A DNA stretch of 44,302 nt from Saprospiraceae bacterium (GTDB lineage: Bacteria > Bacteroidota > Bacteroidia > Chitinophagales > Saprospiraceae), in assembly GCA_021298575.1 (NCBI GenBank), contig JAJTFM010000015.1:1-44302 (forward strand), in the 5' to 3' direction. The notes under the pieces were generated by a model. It saw only the letters and a program-made list of their open reading frames with translations, was not told the DNA's origin and ran no database searches. Positions 5,267 to 8,435 of this stretch are shown here, piece after piece. Position 1 is the stretch's first letter; every line of letters begins with the position of its first letter. A program made the position numbers and the translations under genes.

Positions 5267-7341
5267 TTATCTGACGAACAGCAGTTCGCGGTATTTGACC
5301 AGCGGCCAGTATTCGTCGTCAACGATAGCCGCCAGATCATCCACCGCGGCGCGGATAGCCTCCATTTGCGGTCTTACCGCGTGGCAGAAAATATCAGCTT
5401 CTGCGCGGAGTGAATCAGCGTGATGTGCCTTTTCGTAAGCCTCATGCAGACTGTTCATACCCGCATGAATAGCCTCAACATTGGTATTGACCCTTTTAAT
5501 CAGTTCAATCTGCAGTTTGGCTGAAGAGAGCATATCAATGGCACGCATGGCGGCGATATTCTCTGCCAGCTCCTTCTGATAGCGCAGAACGGCGGGCATC
5601 ACCAGGGACTGTACCATTTCTTCGAGCGATTTTGCCTCAATATCAAGCTTCGTGATATAAGAATGCAATTGTACGGAATGGTAAGCTTCCAGCTCCACCT
5701 TCGTCATGACACCCGATTTTCCGTAGAGTTCCTGAGCCTGTTTATTACCCAGTACGTCGAGAGCCTCAGGCGTGGTAGGGAAATTATTCAGTCCGCGACG
5801 GGCAGCTTCTTCCTTCCATTCATCGGAGTAGTTGTTGCCCTCGAACAGGATAGCTTTGGATCGGCGGATATATGATTTCAGTACGAGCAGGATAGCCTCG
5901 TCTTTTTCTTCACCTTTGGCGATGAGCTTGTCCACATCGGCCTTGAATTCGGTCAATTGAAGACCCATCATGGAATTCATCACTGCCATTGGGCCTGCAC
6001 AGTTCTGACTGCTGCCCACGGCGCGGATTTCAAACTTGTTACCGGTGAATGCGAACGGAGAGGTACGGTTTCTGTCCGTGTTGTCGAGTTCAAGATTAGG
6101 CAGTTTGGCGATCAGGTCGAGCGCGCGTTTCACTTCCTTGCCATCCTGATTTTTGCCTTTGGCAATCTGGTCGAGAAGATTGGTCAGGGCTTCGCCGATG
6201 AAGACAGAGATAATTGCAGGGGGAGCTTCATTGGCGCCCAGTCGGTGATCATTACCGGCGTGAGCGATACTGGCGCGCAGTACGTCGGCATACTTGTGAA
6301 CAGCCGCAATAGTATTGACGAAGAAAGTCAGGAAGCGGAGGTTAGTACCGGGATTTTTGCCTGGAGAGAGCAGGTTGACACCTGTATTGGTACCCATACT
6401 CCAGTTATTGTGCTTGCCGGAGCCGTTTACGCCTGCGAAAGGTTTCTCGTGGAGAAGCACGCGCAGTTTGTGACGGCGTGCCACGCGATCCATGAGGTCC
6501 ATGAGCAGCTGGTTGTGATCCACTGCTACGTTAATTTCCTCATATATAGGTGCGATTTCGTACTGAGCAGGCGCTACCTCATTGTGGCGGGTACGCACCG
6601 GGATACCCAGTTTATGATCACCAGATCGGGACGAGCATTATACAGGGCATCATCCACGACAAAGTATTCCTGTTCCCAGCCGAGTGTTGCCGTTATTTTG
6701 GTCACATTCTCATCGAACAACTGCGCTACAGGCACAGCGGCCTTGTCGAGAAACGCCTGCGAGCGGAGCAGAGGGAGCTTGTAATCCTGCGCTTCACCGC
6801 CATAGGTAACAAAGATAGTCGGGATACACAGCGTTTTACCTTCACCGACAGCCATAATAAAGGCCGGACTGCTGGGATCCCATACAGTATAGCCGCGCGC
6901 CTCGAAAGTACTGCGCATGCCACCGGAAGGGAATGATGAGCCGTCGGGCTCCTGCTGTACGAGTGCGGAGCCGGCGAACTCTTCCATTACCCTGCCATCA
7001 TGCGTCAGCGTGAAGAAAGAGTCGTGTTTTTCGGCTGTTTTTCCGGTTAGTGGCTGGAACCAGTGTGCAAAGTGCGTGCAGCCGTGGTGCTGTGCCCATT
7101 CCTTCATGCCGTTTGCCACTACATCGGCGATTTCACGGGTAAGTTTTTGACCGCTCTGGACAGCGGCTTTAACCGTGAGGTAAGCTTTTTCCGGGAGGTA
7201 CTTCTTCATCGCTTCGTCGTGGAAGACATTCTCCCCGAAGTAGGAAGCGATTGTTTCGGCCTTTCCTTCAGTGAAATCTGTCGAAATCGGCTCAATGCGA
7301 CTTTCCAGGGTCTGGAGTGCGTTAAAACGAGTGAGGGACAT
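5267..7341 (-). pseudogene. glnN: Type III glutamine synthetase, broken by an internal deletion and frameshift
   Basis: GSIII makes glutamine from glutamate, ammonia and ATP and is the usual glutamine synthetase of many Bacteroidota. Two frames carry it. The N-terminal frame (7341-6574, 255 residues) includes GGMRSTFEARGYTVWDPSSP and the glutamate-site motif LGWEQEYFVVD, and stays GSIII-like through YNARPDLV before ending in an out-of-frame tail. The C-terminal frame (5267 to about 6617) resumes at KLGIPVRTRHNEVAPAQYE and continues through EKPFAGVNGSGKHNNWS and KFEIRAVGSSQNCAGP to a normal end. The combined length of about 691 codons is some 40 short of the roughly 730 of the family. From memory, the missing piece between ARPDL and KLGIPV is a conserved stretch containing a PPKGQ motif. 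So about 125 bp have been lost and the frame shifted near 6615. A real mutation or an assembly error are both possible; a GTG at 6598 could in principle restart translation. Confidence 0.88.
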
Positions 7342-7517
7342 TGGTATCTGTGAATAAGTTGAGTGAAAAATGGTATCAGCCCGGCGATTGCCGATTTTTG
7401 TTCAATGAAAAAACGACTTCTTTACTCCTCACGGAGCAGATTAAAAATATCCTGAACGGCGCAGGGGGTCAGCGCTGTTGTCGCTGTCGGATATCGGAAA
7501 AAAAGAAAACAGAATTG

Positions 7518-7638
7518 AAAAAAACCTGAGTGAAAGGGCGGCCTTTCCATTTGCCGAGCGGGGTCGGCATGCTGTTGAAGCCCGGAATGGAGGAAAGGCG
7601 GTGGAACGACATCGTTCTATTGGGAATTTAGCCCTTTT
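7518..7638 (-). ncRNA. Candidate structured leader RNA or small RNA upstream of glnN
   Basis: Four nested or adjacent stems are visible: an outer AAAGGGC (7533-7539) with GCCCTTT (7631-7637); GCCTTTCC (7541-7548) with GGAAAGGC (7592-7599); TGCCGA (7552-7557) with TCGGCA (7564-7569); and GAACG with CGTTC (7604-7617). Read on the minus strand, RNA starting 7 nt after the TAACTTTG box would begin exactly at the outer stem, and a U7 tract (7524-7518) follows it after a 7-nt gap. It does not match any riboswitch class I can recall, including the cyanobacterial glutamine riboswitch. Confidence 0.45.
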
Positions 7639-7644
7639 CTAGCG

Positions 7645-7652
7645 CAAAGTTA
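7645..7652 (-). promoter_or_regulatory. TAnnTTTG -7 box upstream of the glnN leader
   Basis: Reads TAACTTTG on the minus strand, an exact match to the Bacteroidota -7 consensus, placing the transcript start near 7638. No TTTG is visible at the usual 19-21 nt spacing, so expression might need an activator. Confidence 0.45.
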
Positions 7653-7690
7653 ACAAAAAATTTAAAATAACGCCGGAAAAATGACATATT

Positions 7691-7715
7691 ACCTGTCGTT
7701 AACATAATCACAGGT
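7691..7715. promoter_or_regulatory. Dyad upstream of the glnN -7 box
   Basis: ACCTGT (7691-7696) and ACAGGT (7710-7715), perfect 6-bp arms with a 13-nt A/T-rich spacer, located 40-70 bp upstream of the TAACTTTG box. Position fits an activator or repressor site for glnN. Confidence 0.3.
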
Positions 7716-7762
7716 CAGAATATTTAAAACAAATAAACACCGGCCGTGTAATCTTGTTTCGG

Positions 7763-7809
7763 CTGAATCTGTTTTTTTACATCATTATTTTTTTAAATTC
7801 CAGATTCAG
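7763..7809. repeat. 9-bp inverted repeat at the end of the TIGR04282 gene
   Basis: CTGAATCTG (7763-7771) and CAGATTCAG (7801-7809) are perfect inverted copies separated by 29 A/T-rich bases. The right arm overlaps the last codons and stop of the transferase gene. No U-run follows on the minus strand, so it is not a typical intrinsic terminator, though the long stem may stop or protect the transcript. Confidence 0.5.
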
Positions 7810-8435
7810 GTCTGAACAAATTCTTTTGTGGCATCCGGATTTGAGTTTATATAACTGATCCAGTCTTCATATTCGTCTATATCCGACAGCACGGGTAGCA
7901 GCGTGTAATCCTTGCCGAATGAGCGTACCAGCCGGAGAGTATCTTCGGCTACCGATGCAGTACTCCATATTATTCCTTCGAATATTTCCGGCGTGCACTG
8001 TTTCATCCCGAGCAGATAATAACCTCCATCGCGAGCGGGGCCCATGACAAAATCAGTATTGTCGAGTGCATCAAAAGCATAGCGGATCAGTCCGGAGTCC
8101 AGTTCCGGGCAATCGCTGCCGATGATTATGGCCTTTTGTGCGCCGGAGTGAAAAGCCTGGTGAAAAGCCGAAGCCATACGCTGTCCGAGATCGCCGGGCG
8201 ATTGCACTGCTTTCAGGAAAGCGGCACTGGGCCACTCATCGGCAGCAGGGACGTGTTCGCTGTAGCAGAGCAGGCGGCTGCACTCCACACCAAGCGCGGC
8301 GGAGCGTGTTTTTTCAAGCAGAAAGTGGTAAATACGGAGTGCTGCATCATCGCCCGAGACGCTGGCGAGCCGGGTTTTGACCTTGCCCCTTTCCGGATTT
8401 TTAACAAAAACAATGAGTGTGTCCTGTTGGCTCAC
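7806..8435 (-). CDS. rSAM/selenodomain-associated transferase 1 (TIGR04282, DUF2064)
   Basis: A 209-residue cytoplasmic nucleotidyl/glycosyltransferase-like protein with a GT-A/CofC-type fold. The start MSQQDTLIVFVKNPERGKVKTRL has the nucleotide-binding K-x-P-x-x-G-x-x-K-T-R-L pattern of CofC and MobA relatives. The metal-site motif GSDCPEL lies near residue 105 and GPARDGGYYLLGM near 130. Its biochemical substrate is not established; in many bacteria it is found beside a family 2 transferase and radical-SAM genes, none of which is present here. The ATG overlaps the nadC stop by 4 bp, so the two genes are translationally coupled and expressed from an upstream minus-strand promoter. Confidence 0.85.
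   Translation of the reverse strand: MSQQDTLIVFVKNPERGKVKTRLASVSGDDAALRIYHFLLEKTRSAALGVECSRLLCYSEHVPAADEWPSAAFLKAVQSPGDLGQRMASAFHQAFHSGAQKAIIIGSDCPELDSGLIRYAFDALDNTDFVMGPARDGGYYLLGMKQCTPEIFEGIIWSTASVAEDTLRLVRSFGKDYTLLPVLSDIDEYEDWISYINSNPDATKEFVQT

Follow-up and report, generated by a model that had tools for sequence, protein, structure and literature searches.

The window analysed here is a stretch of 44,302 nucleotides from a Saprospiraceae bacterium (contig JAJTFM010000015.1). On its minus strand it carries glnN, the gene for a type III glutamine synthetase (positions 5267–7341), whose product matches the Pfam families GSIII_N, Gln-synt_C and Gln-synt_C-ter. The gene occupies two frames in the window (7341–6574 and 6598–5267), while in 38 relatives it is one frame of 728–730 residues; the break at 6574–6598 may reflect either a genuine lesion or a fault of the assembly. 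Five of the genomes compared (G004, G007, G008, G009 and G023) carry, in addition to the orthologue, a second type III glutamine synthetase-like gene, 51–53% identical over the matched part. Upstream of glnN, on the same strand, positions 7806–8435 of the window match TIGR04282, a glycosyltransferase family of arsenosugar biosynthesis.

A first-pass annotation had described the segment at 7518–7652 as a structured leader or small RNA read from the minus strand. The -7 box on which this description was anchored, TAACTTTG (consensus TAnnTTTG), is present as claimed at 7652–7645 of the minus strand. The transcript start had been placed at 7638; if the box spans positions -12 to -5, the placement given for Flavobacterium psychrophilum (PMC9723704), the predicted start lies close by, at about 7640. 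The multi-stem fold drawn for the 121-nt segment was reproduced as well, with an outer stem (AAAGGGC at 7637–7631 with GCCCUUU at 7539–7533), an inner stem (GCCUUUCC at 7599–7592 with GGAAAGGC at 7548–7541) and smaller hairpins. The segment has a minimum free energy of -37.2 kcal/mol (z -2.86), and none of 200 dinucleotide shuffles was as stable. Fold stability alone is nevertheless weak, suggestive evidence, because z falls to -1.77 when the segment is cut to 7645–7536 (11 of 200 shuffles equally good) and ranges from -0.87 to -2.15 in the leaders of seven relatives.

When 100 genomes, counting that of the window, were searched at the DNA level, 14 gave matches, and every one of these genomes belongs to the same genus; one of the matches (L011) is due to chance and lies inside another gene, and one genome (G025) has a second, weak match (L015). 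The glnN orthologue, identified by protein, is present in 40 of the 42 genomes of the genus. For 39 of these genes the upstream sequence was taken to a length of at most 900 nt; with the window this makes 40 leaders, some of which are shortened by contig ends (the shortest, that of G029, has 284 nt). Homologues were selected for their resemblance to the P3/GGA core, and a carrier was defined as a leader that departs by no more than 7 substitutions from a 24-nt core that holds the hairpin P3 and the first bases of the 3' strand of the helix P2. By this definition the element is carried by 22 of the 40 leaders, which form one clade within one genus, and is missing from the other 18. A TAnnTTTG box stands 60–95 nt 5' of the core in all 22 carriers.

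A covariance model built from the 22 carrier sequences (R1) has one match per genome in 22 of the 42 genomes of the genus, and every match lies upstream of glnN on the same strand. R1 was also run on 298 genomes drawn from the family, covering 112 genera and scored with 12 candidates per genome, and matched only two, both of the same genus. Its scores in 28 outgroup glnN loci are at chance level (best 11.4 bits), and in the 18 core-less leaders, searched with the filters off, the best is 14.5 bits against at least 72.6 bits in carriers. Within the genomes and loci covered by these searches, the idea that the element has spread beyond the genus was rejected. A scan of genome contigs with the exact pattern returned 31 stretches, 18 of them titled as Bacteroidota and 13 titled to other phyla.

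This constant position bears on one of the forms that had been proposed for the segment, namely a stand-alone sRNA that ends at a tract of seven U. The tract does exist in the window (7524–7518), where it follows a stable fold, but it is not conserved among the homologues and lies within the codons of an ORF that overlaps it; moreover, no shared terminator comes after the structure, and 22 of 22 copies are located 5' of glnN on its strand. Such an sRNA is very improbable. The segment is best explained as the 5' leader of the mRNA of glnN and not as a separate gene.

When RNAalifold was applied to a plain MAFFT alignment of the 22 carriers it returned, unprompted, the helices P2 and P3 and nothing else, with 6 of 13 pairs doubly changed. 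P2 is the inner stem of the window's fold (5' strand at 7592–7599, 3' strand at 7541–7548, minus strand); it joins the bases after the AAAU that follows P3 with a strand located 37–43 nt upstream, and double compensatory changes occur at five of its pairs. P3 is the hairpin U-GCCGA-CCCCGC-UCGGC-A (7552–7569, minus strand), with the consensus U-GYCGR-CCCYGN-YYGRC-A (G013 and G015 are among the exceptions), and 99.2% of its cells are paired over the 22 sequences. The CGCCC that comes after P2 (7536–7540, minus strand) is largely conserved in the alignment.

Parsimony on the glnN tree counts about 20 double compensatory changes in P2 and P3, spread over 7 pairs, although some of these counts may represent one gain followed by a one-sided change (e.g., in G020/G038/G017); in P3, C-G changed to U-A four times and A-U to G-C three times. 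Across both helices 291 of 308 cells are paired after register shifts in four sequences, and the P2 change counts and split lengths rest on these hand-set, three-column shifts. The arms of P2 fit their own partners better than foreign ones (-12.3 vs. -9.7 kcal/mol over 22 genomes; permutation p 5e-5), in a permutation that, like those for the P1 arms, for covariation, for the outer helix and for the repeated codon tests, ignores relatedness. The covariation score is 0.270, compared with 0.196 in shuffled alignments (0 of 500 as high) and 0.064–0.118 when the pairing is slid, while two of the five measures were reached by shuffles (27 and 10 of 500). Each of the two helices appears in 20 of the 22 best single-sequence folds, the exceptions being G013 (neither helix), G030 (no P3) and G016 (no P2). 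Judging from this pattern of substitutions, P2 and P3 are real helices. The first-pass annotation had asked for covariation in the leaders of related glnN genes, and the compensatory changes found by RNAalifold and by parsimony support its view of a structured leader of a nitrogen-assimilation gene.

It could also be argued that P3 and P2 form an inverted repeat that acts in the DNA, as an operator for a transcription factor, an idea encouraged by the operator-like sites that the sister leaders carry near the same promoter. However, the arms of P2 are some 37–43 nt apart and the compensatory changes are of many kinds. In addition, G-U cells outnumber A-C cells in P2 and P3 by 21 to 10, even if 6 of the 10 A-C cells occur at the outermost P2 pair, and this excess favors the minus-strand RNA as the molecule that folds. 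A role of the two helices as a DNA operator is therefore regarded as highly unlikely.

The remaining parts of the window's fold are less general. The hairpin of the P1 region, GAACG-AUGU-CGUUC (7604–7617, minus strand), holds the AUG of the leader ORF in its loop, and many relatives have a hairpin of the type AAAGCGxxUU/AAUG-C-CGCUUU with the AUG in the stem. Support for P1 is moderate: the test of own against foreign arms gives p 0.03, 72.7% of the cells are paired, and the helix is absent from the RNAalifold consensus. The outer helix, which had been drawn as the frame of the whole structure, is strong in the window and in G001 only (-11.4 and -12.6 kcal/mol) and sets this species pair apart; over the 22 leaders its arms pair no better than foreign arms (p 0.23), so it was rejected as a feature of the family. 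What is conserved in 22 genomes of the structure first proposed is thus P2 and P3, but not the helix that was thought to enclose them.

The statement that the element matches no known riboswitch class was borne out by Rfam 15. Covariance models of this release gave no match at the gathering threshold in the whole window, and the six matches at 7340–7820 (E 0.76–9.9) are all far below gathering scores; the models of the glutamine riboswitches (glnA RNA and downstream-peptide) have no match at gathering in the window, nor at E ≤10 in 7340–7820. Identity with a known RNA family was accordingly rejected, and a riboswitch, if the leader is one, would be new. A ligand-binding P3 loop is, together with an arrest peptide, one of the two main rivals of the interpretation favored below. 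According to this idea, a small molecule, glutamine for instance, is bound by P2 and P3 together with the conserved loop and the AAAU linker, and the ORF has no role of its own beyond that of a by-product. The conservation of the unpaired positions (the CCCYG loop and AAAU) and the metabolic nature of the target gene fit it, yet a multi-helix junction is lacking in this two-helix element, the opposite strand of the internal loop (16–22 nt) varies in length and sequence, no shared expression platform was found, and the codons that follow the structure are under selection. No switching partner for a riboswitch was found in the leaders, no consistent partner of the P3 loop was seen by eye, and folds of the part after the core revealed no pairing with the start of glnN. 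A riboswitch is thus considered rather unlikely.

No terminator or anti-terminator common to the leaders was found: 3 of the 22 have no candidate, and those of the others differ in sequence and place, with energies (taken with no shuffled control) from -1.6 to -16.5 kcal/mol. This argues to some extent against classical attenuation; terminator candidates do exist in G030, G007 and G009, in the form of strong hairpins that precede T-rich stretches.

What the first-pass annotation overlooked is that a conserved short ORF surrounds the structure. In the window this ORF has 47 codons plus TGA (MSFHRLSSIPGFNSMPTPLGKWKGRPFTQVFFNSVFFFSDIRQRQQR) and runs from 7612 to 7469 on the minus strand; its AUG is present in 22 of 22 carriers, where it opens ORFs of 46–95 codons. 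The openness of the frame was rejected as proof of coding (shuffle P 0.048–0.576 per leader, with other frames often longer), and the evidence comes instead from the kind of changes that the codons show. In codons 13–30 after the core (counted from the core start), the single differences among 15 gap-free rows are synonymous in 322 cases and nonsynonymous in 249 when read in the frame of the ORF; the other two frames give 98/534 and 92/558 (p 0.0005 by column shuffling). The test omits 7 of the 22 rows, G013 among them by hand, and its p value is the same when G013 is added (16 rows) or when three near-copies are removed (12 rows). Within the RNA core the picture is the opposite, with 6 synonymous and 420 nonsynonymous differences, and paired positions alter two peptide residues at once; since changes in the core alter the peptide, it is the RNA and not the peptide that is kept there. 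The part after the core, on the other hand, looks as if it were read as protein.

Changes in length follow the same frame. From the box to the AUG the lengths are 28–32, with all residues modulo 3 represented and at least 8 events, while 5 of the 6 events downstream of the AUG involve multiples of 3. The total from AUG to core, which is independent of the register shifts made by hand, is 39 or 42 in 21 of 22 leaders and 38 in G006 (L026). In this exception the ORF is shifted through P3 with the RNA pairing intact, and near its end it is back in the frame of four relatives. Taken together, these observations indicate that the leader ORF is probably translated.

Toward its end the window's ORF encodes a late block, FFFSDIRQR (7481–7507, minus strand), of which FFxTDxRQ-like versions are recognized by a loose pattern in 15 of 22 leaders. 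Over 15 rows the block has 236 synonymous and 122 nonsynonymous differences in frame, and the two other frames give 51/343 and 40/334; in a five-genome clade that does not have it, the codon test gives 26/29 (p 0.052). The strong synonymous excess of the block, and the fact that the tail after it varies, suit the second main rival, in which sensing is done by the peptide itself: acting by arrest or attenuation, it would stall the ribosome, for instance through the RQ-like end of the block, and the RNA would only tune the stall. Arrest-peptide leaders such as TnaC and SpeFL of E. coli are indeed known (PMC7815308). Nevertheless, the block is missing in 7 of the 22 leaders, the changes in the core freely alter the peptide, and no conserved run of Gln codons was seen by eye in the 22 translations (the window's ORF ends in RQRQQR). 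For these reasons a peptide sensor, although a serious candidate, is unlikely.

Selection on codons would also be expected if the ORF encoded a small trans-acting protein, with GlnN as one conceivable target, and the structure in its mRNA served its own control, and small factors that inactivate glutamine synthetase exist in cyanobacteria (PMC6316151). Against this proposal, the N-terminal part and the tail of the peptide vary in length and sequence and its middle follows the RNA pairing; furthermore, no Pfam match was found at E ≤0.1 for four of the peptides, nor any NCBIfam match for two. This possibility is improbable.

The distance between the stop of the leader ORF and glnN is 127 nt in the window, 1 nt in G016, G034 and G027, and about 19 to 279 nt elsewhere, and this variation speaks against a single geometry of coupling. 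In L024, L032 and L034 the leader ORF ends one base before the start of glnN (TAA-G-ATG), an arrangement that suggests translational coupling in this subclade.

The 18 leaders that do not carry the element (L019, L027, L030, L033, L036, L041–L045 and L047–L054) have features of a different kind. The sequence TTTCGCT(A/G)AA is found within 500 nt upstream of glnN in all 18 of them and in none of the 22 carriers. Among the 16 non-carriers with a TAnnTTTG box, all 16 have a TTTCGC site between -17 and -20 relative to the box, 12 have one between +65 and +67, and 11 have one between +95 and +98. The mean is 2.5 sites per leader, compared with 0.44 in a backward control; one of the 22 carriers has a TTTCGC there. 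The sites are spaced by about 84 and 31 bp, distances that approximate 8 and 3 helical turns, and by their sequence and placing the sites look like a phased operator array that is largely specific to glnN. The operator-plus-box pattern has 20 matches in the genus, 12 of them at glnN, and the other 8 are near the 5 given by the backward control, so a wider regulon for the motif was not supported. No operator-like site was found in the 23 outgroup leaders, of 28, whose start could be placed.

In the GlnN protein tree of 39 rows (G024 was left out as too short) the 22 carriers are one group (support 100/99). When 12 outgroup rows are added, the best tree nests the carriers inside the non-carriers, with a support of 82 for the branch to the nearest non-carrier; this is a quick tree whose well-supported branches are also compatible with the non-carriers as one group. 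Given the support of 82 and the quick tree, the direction of change from operator to RNA leader can be called likely only; the RNA leader would have been gained within the genus. The broader proposal that a dual-coded element (a folded RNA plus a codon-selected frame, with the ribosome as the switch) arose once in the genus and, at one and the same glnN promoter, took over from DNA operators arrayed in helical phase is tentative, and as a whole it is less likely than not to be true. If true, it would represent a swap from DNA-operator to RNA-leader control of nitrogen assimilation.

The best reading of all these data is that the element is a dual-coded, ribosome-gated cis-regulatory leader of glnN, and a probability of roughly 0.5 is assigned to it. 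Its foundations, all of them drawn from the comparison of genomes, are the promoter box, the cis position, P2 and P3, the selection on the frame after the structure and the single group formed by carriers on the GlnN tree. Transcription would proceed from the TAnnTTTG promoter, starting at about 7640, and would produce a leader whose short ORF (AUG at 7612, stop at 7469) has the conserved RNA domain inside it; in this domain the long-range helix P2 would close on the P3 hairpin with its conserved CCCYGN loop, and a hairpin near the 5' end would hold the leader AUG. A translating ribosome must melt P2 and P3, hence folding and translation would be mutually exclusive, and the competition between them may set the output of glnN. 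In one of the states P1 and P2/P3 would be folded, possibly fixed by a protein or a metabolite, and the leader would be poorly translated, with the transcript lost to Rho, to an RNase or to the lack of coupling. In the other state ribosomes would open the leader and glnN would be made. We infer from the features of the leader that it is translated in the cell, which of the states is "on," and the route that links them to expression (Rho, coupling or decay); the signal, perhaps nitrogen or glutamine status, is a guess based on the target gene.

The glnN leader therefore offers a concrete and testable RNA element at the gene of a type III glutamine synthetase. One group of uncultured bacteria has a folded RNA in an upstream ORF, and its close relatives have apparent DNA operator sites; as close relatives differ in which of two architectures, each excluding the other, stands at this promoter, a change in the mode of regulation can be studied along the gene tree.

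Control of metabolic genes by leader ORFs is a familiar arrangement, of which trpL is an example. Open-licence literature, as represented by listings and the beginnings of abstracts, yielded no paper on the same leader element and none on leader control of type III glutamine synthetase in Bacteroidota. The nearest systems in kind, none of which was found to be the same element, are the upstream ORFs of Bacteroides, the attenuators of F. psychrophilum, the cyanobacterial riboswitches and the leader ORFs of E. coli. In Bacteroides, short ORFs resembling leader peptides have been reported in long 5' UTRs (PMC7366714). F. psychrophilum, likewise a member of the Bacteroidota, has TAnnTTTG promoters, predicted structured leaders and leader peptides at amino-acid operons, and control by attenuation has been proposed or predicted for it (PMC9723704); it differs in that glnN is not named in the leader-peptide section of that paper and R1, run on genomes of the Saprospiraceae, matched one genus only. 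The glutamine riboswitches of type 1 (glnA RNA) and type 2 (downstream-peptide) are also leader RNAs of nitrogen genes, but they are described as restricted to cyanobacteria (PMC6316151), and the window's leader has no Rfam match. The TnaC, SpeFL and MdtU systems resemble the glnN leader in placing a short ORF ahead of a gene for metabolism or transport, and for speFL and mdtU the translation of the ORF, or stalling on it, is tied to Rho and to mRNA structure (PMC7815308). In contrast to these three, neither a shared terminator nor a run of Gln codons was found in the glnN leader, and its most conserved structure lies inside the ORF, where it is kept by compensatory substitutions that change the peptide.
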